From: Archaeoglobi archaeon
Lineage (GTDB): Archaea; Halobacteriota; Archaeoglobi; Archaeoglobales; Archaeoglobaceae
NCBI GenBank assembly: GCA_029259345.1
Contig: JAPDIX010000012.1
Location: 1 to 59,932, forward strand
DNA length: 59,932 nucleotides
Reading direction: 5' to 3'
The notes beneath the pieces are model-generated. The model had not been told where the DNA came from and made no database searches. It was given only the letters and a program-made list of their open reading frames with translations. A program made the translations under genes and the position numbers. Of the stretch, positions 9,081 to 13,672 are shown in pieces. Numbering within the stretch: the stretch's first letter is position 1; each line of letters opens with the position of its first letter.

Positions 9081-10577
9081 CTACATGCTTTCTAATTTTG
9101 TATTCGAACCACTTACTCTTCTCAGATGCTCCTCACCACTGAGAAACAGCACAATAACGATGAGACTGACAATTGGAATCCACAGAACCGATTGGAACAC
9201 GTAATGAAGGCTCTCGATGAAGGAGTCCGACATCAATACGAGTGGGGCAGGATTGCCCATTAAAGCATAAAACTTCAACATCCCCATCGTCCCCGGATCA
9301 GGGAGCTGATTACCGTAACCCGGAATGAGATCTTTCATTTTCTCCGTAAACAGCACTCCTCCAATCGCAACTCCAAGAGCTTGAGCAAGAGTGTTTATTG
9401 TCCTCACCGCGCCATTAGCCATTCCTGCCTTTTGGGGTGGCACTGATGCCATGATGACGTTAAAGGCTGGAGGCATCAAAAGACCGATTCCAATTCCGAG
9501 TGTCGTCAGTTTCGGAAAAAGTTCCCAGTAATCAGTATCATACTCAATCGTTGATAGGAAATACAGGCCAATGAAGAAAAAGATTGGGCCTACGGTCATC
9601 ATGTATTTCGGATTCATCCTGTCACTGAGTCTTCCGGCAACTGGTGCTACTACGGCATTTGTCAGAGGTATGGCGACGAGCCAGTAACCAGCATCCTCTG
9701 CTGTCAACCCCTTAATACCCTGAAGAAAGAAGGGCAAGATGAAAAGACTGGCTGAAAGACCAAGGAAGAGGATAGATAAGGCCGTTATCCCTACAGTGAA
9801 ATTCCTTACTTTAAACAAGCTCACATCGAGTAACGGATATGGACATGTGATTTCCCTGACTACGAATGCCAGCAGATATGGGAAGGCGACGATAAAGCAT
9901 GCGAGCGTTTTCTGATTCCACCACCCCCAGTCCTGTCCTTTGATTATACCCAGCGTTAATGCACCAAGACCGACAGACAGCAAAATCAGTCCAGCAAAAT
10001 CAATTGGTTCTTTGGTTCTTGCCGGCATTGGAGGCAGGAAAATCCACGCCATCGCCACAGCAGCCATACTGACGGGAACGTTGATGTAAAAAACCCAGTG
10101 CCAGCTTAAATTTGTTGTCAACCAACCACCAATTATCGGACCGAGTGAGAATGCAGATGCAGTTAAAATTGCATTCAGACCCATTGCAGCCCCTCTTTTA
10201 CCCGGTGGAAACAGCTCCACCATAATTGCAAGAATATTACCGCTGAGCATAGCCCCTCCAAAAGCCTGTAAAACTCTAAAAGCGATGAGAGATCCAACAT
10301 CCCACGATTCTGCGCAGAGGTAACTGCTTATACCAAACAAAATCATTCCGGCCATGTAATAATAATCTCTCCTCACCATGTCGCCGAGCTTACCTGCAAG
10401 AACAAGCAAAACAACCATCGTGATTGTGTAAGCATTGAGTATCCACTGCACATCTGACGCTTTTGCATTGAAATCCTCCGCAATTCTCGGCAATGCAACG
10501 TTTAGAACGCTTACATCGAGAAGAACCATGAACAGACCGAGACCGACTGGGATCAATGCAAACCAGTTACTTCGCAT
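9081..10577 (-). CDS. MFS transporter, DHA2 (14-TM drug:H+ antiporter) family
   Basis: 498 aa; FMVLLDVSVLNVALPRIAEDF...WILNAYTI and GPIIGGWLTTNLSWHWVFYINVP motifs. Confidence 0.9.
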   Translation of the reverse strand: MRSNWFALIPVGLGLFMVLLDVSVLNVALPRIAEDFNAKASDVQWILNAYTITMVVLLVLAGKLGDMVRRDYYYMAGMILFGISSYLCAESWDVGSLIAFRVLQAFGGAMLSGNILAIMVELFPPGKRGAAMGLNAILTASAFSLGPIIGGWLTTNLSWHWVFYINVPVSMAAVAMAWIFLPPMPARTKEPIDFAGLILLSVGLGALTLGIIKGQDWGWWNQKTLACFIVAFPYLLAFVVREITCPYPLLDVSLFKVRNFTVGITALSILFLGLSASLFILPFFLQGIKGLTAEDAGYWLVAIPLTNAVVAPVAGRLSDRMNPKYMMTVGPIFFFIGLYFLSTIEYDTDYWELFPKLTTLGIGIGLLMPPAFNVIMASVPPQKAGMANGAVRTINTLAQALGVAIGGVLFTEKMKDLIPGYGNQLPDPGTMGMLKFYALMGNPAPLVLMSDSFIESLHYVFQSVLWIPIVSLIVIVLFLSGEEHLRRVSGSNTKLESM

Positions 10578-11359: not shown

Positions 11360-12096
11360 GGCATCACCAGTCTTTCAGCTTTTAGCAGCAGCCAATTCAT
11401 GATATACCCAACCACTCCGATCATGGCCATCCCTGCTACAATCTCCGCAACCCTCCCACCAACCTGATACATCGTCATGATGAAGTATCCAAGCCCCTCA
11501 CCGGATGTTGCAATCATCTCGGCAGCAATTATGCTCATCCACCCCACGCCAAGCCCTATCCTTATTCCTGTCATTATGCCCTGCAAAGAGTGGGGGACGA
11601 TAATACTCTTCAAAATGAGCGAATCACTGGCTCTGAACACCTTTGCCATCTCAAGGAACTCCCCAGGGACGTTTCTTGCATAGTCAAAGACCGATATCAA
11701 ACAGGGAAAGAAGGCCCCGACAAAGACGATGAAAATTTGTGAAACCTGAACAGTGTTAGGGAAAGGTGCAAAGATAATGTAAGCAAGTGGAATCCACGCC
11801 AGAGGTGGGATTGGGCGAATAGCCTCGATTGCAGGCATTAATATCTCTCCTAAACTCCTGTTCCAGCCTGCCAGAATGGCGAGCGGGATGGCAATGCTGA
11901 ACGCTACCAATGATGCAAAAATGACTCTCAGTAGACTTGCCCAAGCATGTTCAAGGAGTGTTTTTCCCAGAACGGGTTCAGGAGTGAAAAGGAGATAAAA
12001 GAACTTCTCAGCCACCTCGTGAGGGTGAGGTAGCTCAGTAAAGAAGGCCACCACATACCATAGAAAGACAAAGAGGGCAGCACTTTTCAGTCTCAT
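11350..12096 (-). CDS. ABC transporter permease (SsuC/TauC type)
   Basis: BPD-type EAA region (EMAKVFRASDSLILKSIIVPHSLQGIMTGIRIGLGVGWMSIIAAEMI). Confidence 0.9.
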   Translation of the reverse strand: MRLKSAALFVFLWYVVAFFTELPHPHEVAEKFFYLLFTPEPVLGKTLLEHAWASLLRVIFASLVAFSIAIPLAILAGWNRSLGEILMPAIEAIRPIPPLAWIPLAYIIFAPFPNTVQVSQIFIVFVGAFFPCLISVFDYARNVPGEFLEMAKVFRASDSLILKSIIVPHSLQGIMTGIRIGLGVGWMSIIAAEMIATSGEGLGYFIMTMYQVGGRVAEIVAGMAMIGVVGYIMNWLLLKAERLVMPWR

Positions 12097-13106
12097 GTGC
12101 CTGTCTCCAAACCTGCCTTTTCAGCAGCAATCCTTAGCAAGAAATCCTGCACAGTGCCAAACCCTGGTATTGCGACTTTCTTTCCTGCTAGTTCCTCCAA
12201 GCTCTTTGCATCCTTCGCCACTATTGCCGAACCCTCATTGTTCGCCCCCGCAATGATTTTGATCCTGATATCATCGTTAACCCTCTTCAGAGTTGCCGGA
12301 GCACCACCAAGATATCCTGCGTCAATCTCTCTGTTCTTAAATCCCTCCATCTCCATCACACCATTCGCAAACTCCTTTGCCTCAACCTGCAATCCAACCT
12401 GCTTATAGTAACTCTCTTTCATTGCCACATAAATGGCAAGCTGGTGCAGGTCGGCTGTCAAGTATCCCACCCTAACTTTTTTGTTTACCTTCTCGGGCAC
12501 CCAGCTCTCGTTCTCCTTCAACCTTTCCAAGACGTAGTCGTAAAACTCGCTGTAGAGGAAGTCCTTCAAAAACTCATCTTCACTGTCATATCCAAGATCT
12601 CCCGGCTTTTTGGTCAGATAACCTCCCCTTTCGAGTTCCTGATAGTATTTAACGAACTCCTCTTTGTCTGGATACTCAACAAACTTTATCCTCTTCAGAG
12701 CTTCTTCTACAACCTCCCTATTTTTGCCCGTGAATTCAGAAGCATATTCAAGAACTTTTTCTCTGTTCTCCTCTGAATTTATGAATCTCGTCGCCTTAAC
12801 ATGTGCCCAGACAAGGGCAACGGCAACATCCCTGTCTAATTTGTCTGATGTCGCGACAACGCAGCATGGGTGATTCGGCCAGATGTCTGCAGAAGTTGCT
12901 ATGATTTTACCGTACCCATTCACAACAGCCTCGCTTACGAATGGCTCCCACGCAACGAAGGCGTCAATCTCACCAAGTTTAAGCTGCTCCACCATATCAC
13001 GGGGAGACATTTTAACAACCCTGATCTTCCCCTTCTCCACCTCTGCTTGCTGACACCCAGCCAAGAATATCGCAAGTATCACTGCAAGGGCAATCAACCT
13101 TTTCAT
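12093..13106 (-). CDS. ABC transporter substrate-binding lipoprotein (NMT1/SsuA-like) with apparently circularly permuted lobes
   Basis: Lipobox LAGC; C-terminal-lobe sequence (VVKMSPRDMVEQLKLGEIDAFVAWEPFVSEAV) precedes N-terminal-lobe sequence (VRVGYLTADLHQLAIYVA...GANNEGSAIVAK...GKKVAIPGFGTVQDFLLR); ATGA overlap with the permease. Confidence 0.88.
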   Translation of the reverse strand: MKRLIALAVILAIFLAGCQQAEVEKGKIRVVKMSPRDMVEQLKLGEIDAFVAWEPFVSEAVVNGYGKIIATSADIWPNHPCCVVATSDKLDRDVAVALVWAHVKATRFINSEENREKVLEYASEFTGKNREVVEEALKRIKFVEYPDKEEFVKYYQELERGGYLTKKPGDLGYDSEDEFLKDFLYSEFYDYVLERLKENESWVPEKVNKKVRVGYLTADLHQLAIYVAMKESYYKQVGLQVEAKEFANGVMEMEGFKNREIDAGYLGGAPATLKRVNDDIRIKIIAGANNEGSAIVAKDAKSLEELAGKKVAIPGFGTVQDFLLRIAAEKAGLETGT

Positions 13107-13201: not shown

Positions 13202-13672
13202 ATGATATCGAGACTTGCGGAGTGCATAGCGAGGGGGGAGGACTTTGGCAGATGCCTTGAAAGGGTGCTTGTTGAAAAGGGCCTGAAACCTGCAGAATTC
13301 GCGAGAAAAGCTAATATCCCTCAATCAACGCTTTACAAGATTCTAAGAGGTTACAAGCCGAGATACGATACGCTTGCTAAAATTTTTTCCGCTCTGCATG
13401 AGGAAAAGGAGTTCGCTGCCCTGATCGCTGCGAGATATGTTTTGGAAGACAAGAGGTTTGATGAGAGAGTTAGGGTTTATCCTGCTACCACACTCGAAGA
13501 TGCGATAGTTGCGGTTGTGAGAGCTGAGAAAGATGGGGCAAGGGCGATTATCTGTGCCCCGGTAATCAGCAGTCTCGCCGAGAAGATAGTTGACGTGCCA
13601 GTGATAACCATAAAGCCGGAAAAAAGTGTTGAAAGGGCAGTAAAGACGGCAATTGAAAAATTCAACCTTTGA
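13202..13672 (+). CDS. HTH (XRE-like) transcriptional regulator
   Basis: KPAEFARKANIPQSTLYKILRGYKPRYDTLAKI helix-turn-helix plus C-terminal alpha/beta domain. Confidence 0.8.
   Translation: MISRLAECIARGEDFGRCLERVLVEKGLKPAEFARKANIPQSTLYKILRGYKPRYDTLAKIFSALHEEKEFAALIAARYVLEDKRFDERVRVYPATTLEDAIVAVVRAEKDGARAIICAPVISSLAEKIVDVPVITIKPEKSVERAVKTAIEKFNL

Follow-up and report, generated by a model that had tools for sequence, protein, structure and literature searches.

A naturally circularly permuted NMT1/SsuA-type substrate-binding lipoprotein of an archaeal ABC importer operon, and probable repeated permutation within its family

Does a substrate-binding protein (SBP) gene whose two halves stand in reversed order encode a working protein, or is it the product of misassembly or gene decay? 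This question is raised by one locus of the window, that is, the whole analysed stretch of 59,932 nucleotides of contig JAPDIX010000012.1 (assembly GCA_029259345.1, Archaeoglobi archaeon). The initial annotation reported here an open reading frame at 12093-13106 with reversed lobe order behind a lipobox signal peptide, and the frame was found at this place on the minus strand with LAGC at residues 15-18 (Table 1). The SBP gene forms one operon with genes for a PF00528 permease and a PF00005 ATPase, the three components of an ABC importer; the SBP stop and the permease start share an ATGA at window bases 12093-12096, and the permease and ATPase genes overlap too. The same annotation considered the C-terminus genuine on the basis of the ATGA overlap, which is real; with orthologues that keep the order of the halves in one frame, this order goes far beyond a chance outcome. 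On the evidence given below the product of the gene is very probably a natural circular permutant that functions as the SBP of this three-gene importer.

Table 1. Features of the permuted SBP gene and its operon in the window
Feature	Coordinates	Strand	Evidence and remarks
Circularly permuted NMT1/SsuA-type substrate-binding lipoprotein (SBP) gene	12093..13106	-	337 aa + stop; profiles, orthologues, model
Signal peptide, lipobox LAGC and short linker, residues 1-25	13032..13106	-	Sequence; weak PF08139 match under cut-off; model helix 2-16
Lipobox LAGC, residues 15-18	13053-13064	-	Sequence
Former C-terminal half, residues 26-201: lobe 2 core with WPNHPCC, then C-terminal helices	12504..13031	-	C-half HMM 286 bits; TIGR01728 profile 123-247
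Junction, residues 202-208, old C-terminus joined to old N-terminus	12483..12503	-	Unstructured in model; preceded by helix 187-198, followed by strand 209-216
Former N-terminal half, residues 209-337: DLHQLA lobe-1 part, GKKVAIPG strand, GTVQDFLLR helix	12096..12482	-	N-half HMM 211 bits; PF09084 profile 6-117
ABC permease, PF00528	11350..12096	-	Start codon overlaps SBP stop (ATGA)
ABC ATPase, PF00005	10649..11359	-	Closest in NCBIfam: SaoA, taurine and nitrate ATPase models, each under cut-off
Divergent helix-turn-helix regulator	13202..13672	+	Homologues by tblastn in 88 fetched loci

Behind the lipobox signal the chain passes through the half 'VVKMSPRDMVEQLKLGEIDAFVAWEPF...WPNHPCC' and the C-terminal helices and then into the half 'KVRVGYLTADLHQLA...GKKVAIPGFGTVQDFLLRIAAEKAGLETGT', which reads 'VRVGYLTADLHQLA...NNEGSA...GKKVAIPGFGTVQDFLLR' and finishes with EKAGLETGT before the stop codon. 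Homology of the NMT1/SsuA type extends across both halves according to PF13379, PF09084 and separate N-half and C-half HMMs, and the comparison with the Pfam models proposed in the initial annotation placed the halves on the profiles in swapped order. PF13379 (NMT1_2) matched in two stretches with 111 bits (cut-off 24.7), residues 25-120 lying on profile positions 151-249, and PF09084 (NMT1) matched with 31 bits (cut-off 20.5), residues 224-333 lying on positions 6-117. The SsuA_fam model TIGR01728 was likewise matched in two parts, one of which places residues 19-142 at positions 123-247, and gave no full-length match with the N half before the C half, the score of 115.3 bits being under the cut-off of 163.5. 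In alignment with E. coli TauA (6ssy) query residues 230-324 fall on chain residues 21-117 and query residues 15-73 on chain residues 117-173, and the reversed lobe order is confirmed. The gene thus encodes, in one conserved frame behind a lipobox signal, an NMT1/SsuA/TauA-type SBP with swapped halves, where the old ends are joined, the new ends lie in a loop, and the arrangement is kept in relatives. No permuted member of the family was found in the PDB by profile search. The WPNHPCC motif (W76-C82, window 12861-12881) belongs to a W-x-x-H-P-C-C pattern and is a possible ligand or metal contact. Its W, H, P, C, and C do not vary in any of the 22 permuted sequences aligned, and linear relatives show a similar pattern.

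The modelling proposed in the initial annotation predicts one ordinary two-lobed SBP fold, in which the old ends are joined by a short linker. The AlphaFold2 model of the window SBP, built on the family alignment, has pLDDT 92.5 and pTM 0.86, the linear relative L116 used as a control has pLDDT 94.2, and the order of structural elements in the permuted model is that of the linear model with two blocks exchanged. The cut separates the GTVQDFLLR helix, which follows GFGTVQDF, from the VVKMSP strand, which precedes SPRDMV, and lies in a loop that the known layout of the type II SBP fold places within lobe 2 and in which the former N-terminal half now ends. In structural comparison by Foldseek the linear control matched TauA, SsuA, 3un6, NrtA, and CmpA at E values of ~1e-23 to 1e-19 (best 1.4e-23) and TM of 0.66-0.86 to target, and the best match of the permuted model was OpuAC (E 4.8e-5, TM to target 0.42, 13% identity). 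Foldseek aligns in sequence order, and weak scores are what such an aligner would be expected to give for a permuted protein. Kinship with OpuAC was set aside in view of the low TM and identity, and no OpuAC family stands among the Pfam or NCBIfam matches of the window SBP, which gives no sign of OpuAC/ProX homology.

A search for orthologues of the same order had also been advised. A profile built from 22 permuted proteins found near full-length collinear matches in 72 of the 394 genomes sampled from the window's phylum, whereas linear paralogues align to it in two separate pieces of opposite order. The permuted order also occurs in approximately 13 of 243 genomes from a second archaeal phylum. 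Across Archaeoglobi the orthologues are encoded in single open frames of independent assemblies at 53-90% identity, and the permuted order is carried by the one-contig genomes G004 (2178400 bp) and G017 (2196266 bp) too. Of the fetched frames, 85 were classed as permuted and 46 as linear by the separate HMMs for the N half and the C half, many of these being duplicates of one gene. At the chosen thresholds no permuted members were detected in the bacterial genomes searched, 297 from one phylum and 251 from a second, one of these searches having no positive control, and plasmid matches were fragmentary, with query coverage below 80% in every case. Strong purifying selection acts on both halves, with dN/dS of 0.08-0.10 for the C half and 0.04-0.06 for the N half against two relatives; a third comparison, near synonymous saturation, is consistent with strong constraint.

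These data bear directly on the less favourable readings of the locus. The genome behind the window is a draft in 88 contigs, in which an ordinary gene might have been rearranged by an assembly or binning error, but since orthologues share the same order in one frame in independent assemblies, one-contig genomes included, the misassembly named in the initial annotation as a refutation is excluded, and we give this reading next to no probability. Hardly more credible is a non-functional, decaying fragment in which the tail of one SBP gene became joined to the head of the following one: a deletion between tandem copies would leave precisely this gene content, but dN/dS of 0.04-0.10 across both halves rules out a pseudogene, the frames are intact in more than 70 genomes, and the operon is coupled and the model confident. 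Such a deletion may well be the origin of the permuted gene, the product having nonetheless been kept. A somewhat better, although still quite improbable, candidate is a domain-swapped dimer, where the C half of one chain would pair with the N half of another into two complementing half-proteins. The junction linker of ~7 residues is short enough to invite it and single-chain modelling is compatible with it; against it stand the pTM of 0.86, the high confidence of the single-chain model across the junction, and the fact that the old N- and C-termini share one lobe in the type II SBP fold.

In the preferred reading, that of a working permuted SBP folded as a single chain, the lipid anchor, which is carried by lobe 1 in ordinary proteins, would now sit on lobe 2, as the model and the usual fold topology suggest. 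The protein would still close on its ligand and pass it on to the permease. Given that the operon contains a single gene for it, the permease is probably a homodimer. The permuted gene may have arisen when a tandem duplication within the gene, downstream of the signal peptide (sig-N-C-N-C), was followed by loss of the outer pieces; this fits the relatives, where the domain alone is permuted and signal peptide, C-terminal anchor, and flanking genes are unmoved. The ancestral tandem duplication for which the initial annotation advised a check in relatives did not appear: no N-C-N-C intermediate was found, and the 1170-aa frame L202 and the 819-aa frame L203 hold one N-C copy each. In these two cases linear SBP domains lie within far longer open frames.

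In comparison with SsuA/TauA/NrtA/CmpA/Thi5-like SBPs (COG0715; PF13379, PF09084, TIGR01728) the window SBP has homologous halves, the same predicted secondary-structure elements, and the same kind of operon, but its halves are reversed and its TIGR01728 score of 115 bits is under the family cut-off of 163.5. Permutation explains such poor scores against family models, and genes of this kind may be misannotated. Natural circular permutation is usually viewed as rare, old, and occurring between distant proteins. In two-lobed SBPs it has been described among glycine betaine-binding proteins, where Bacillus subtilis OpuAC is permuted with respect to ProX (PMC2395249); OpuAC is the best sequential Foldseek match of the window SBP, but belongs to the glycine betaine family and fits poorly. 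The Treponema pallidum lipoprotein Tp0684 (TpMglB-2, "Type Ic / Cluster Bc") is likewise a naturally permuted SBP, which binds its ligand and changes shape (PMC4990184), but it is a sugar-binding cluster B protein of one described family in bacteria. The statement of the initial annotation that no permutation is described in this transporter class holds for NMT1/SsuA/TauA proteins in the open-access literature, with examples in other SBP families, and no report of repeated permutation within one SBP family was found in the same literature.

The recurrence of permutation with different cut sites goes beyond what the initial annotation claimed. Trees were built after the linear order had been restored in silico, and in the 86-row tree the permuted label needs two changes, corresponding to two clades. 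Clade A includes the window SBP, other Archaeoglobi, Thermoplasmatota, and several further families, and its nearest linear proteins are Asgard and then Desulfobacterota-type; clade B, presumably composed of Methanomicrobiales-like families, is sister to linear Methanobacteriaceae proteins with starred support. Since one and the same loop is cut in clades A and B, a single origin can be considered in which the tree was misled by long branches. This appears rather unlikely: one permuted clade is rejected by the AU test in the 86-row tree (p 6e-5) and again in the 119-row tree (p 3e-5), and its position next to linear Methanobacteriaceae proteins also sets clade B apart. The half trees are weaker, with p 0.033 against one clade for the N half and no rejection for the C half (p 0.25), and clade B does stand on a long branch.

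Two further proteins would be separate events even if clades A and B had one origin. L156 (genome G062), compared with linear L046 (G035), aligns by residues 58-259 on 153-355 (69% identity) and 269-361 on 60-152 (85%), and its cut is at the lobe hinge, before DLKGKKIA. Its locus (L179) is syntenic with linear L184, the regulator being 85% identical and the permease and ATPase occupying the same places, while the SBP segments 144-346 and then 46-143 follow a kept signal segment. L157 (G322) aligns with linear L167 by residues 43-256 on 133-347 (65%) and 264-358 on 39-132 (82%) and keeps the C-terminal anchor at its end. The hinge cut was seen only in these two among the sampled relatives, each from one draft genome. 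A third cut is found inside clade A in L178 (G542:C34), which begins with INILAQVNSEGSA and finishes with APPAILRTVNAMA. Taken together, it is probable that archaeal NMT1/SsuA-type SBPs have been permuted at least four separate times, twice by the lobe-2 cut in clades A and B and a further two times at the hinge (L156 and L157), the L178 lineage having been re-cut at a third loop.

If so, the family is a natural permutation series with linear sisters, and placing the anchor or the chain ends on the other lobe is perhaps useful or harmless for archaeal surface SBPs. Permuted and linear versions occur at 65-85% identity and in one case at the same operon position, so that the mechanism of permutation, its sequence cost, and its effect on ligand binding and docking are directly testable in such close pairs. 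This repeated permutation is the part most worth follow-up, and the permuted scaffolds, being heat-stable, are on offer for biosensor work.

The most likely role of the window operon is that of a functional ABC importer of the sulfonate type. The leading guess for its substrate, held tentatively and by analogy, is a sulfonate related to coenzyme M (CoM), because the operons of relatives carry cysteate synthase and sulfopyruvate decarboxylase genes. TIGR03844 and TIGR03845 score above cut-off in loci L010 and L180: in L180, the locus of L157, the two genes stand between the permease and the ATPase, and in L010 they lie a short way upstream of the permuted gene, from which they are separated by an NMT1-like gene that lacks a signal. 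Sulfopyruvate decarboxylase-like genes are also located near several linear relatives, and operon neighbours vary between genomes. The divergent helix-turn-helix regulator accompanies permuted and linear versions alike, the 88 loci with its homologue including both kinds of SBP and some copies of one gene. No CoM biosynthesis genes adjoin the window operon, which is flanked by genes for an MFS transporter, an IleRS-like protein, and the regulator. For M. acetivorans, ssuA/ssuC have been described as a CoM-specific ABC transporter, with levels that go up under CoM starvation (PMC12068725); a further literature search for a CoM transporter gave nothing. This archaeal importer, SsuA-type by its annotation, is likened to the window system, relatives of which adjoin CoM genes.

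Some minor observations concern the neighbouring genes. The signal-less NMT1-like protein of L010 (L010:4037-4915, 292 aa), which adjoins the sulfopyruvate decarboxylase and cysteate synthase genes, has matches also in L055, L056, L058, and L059, and may be a cytosolic protein of the SBP fold that takes part in coenzyme M metabolism. The MFS transporter gene (window 9081-10577) lies on the same strand downstream of the operon, and the matching place is empty of MFS in locus L126, whose genome we take to be A. fulgidus. In that locus a TRAP transporter (DctM) and an NMT1_3 binding protein (L126:1167-4195) are encoded directly downstream of the ABC operon.
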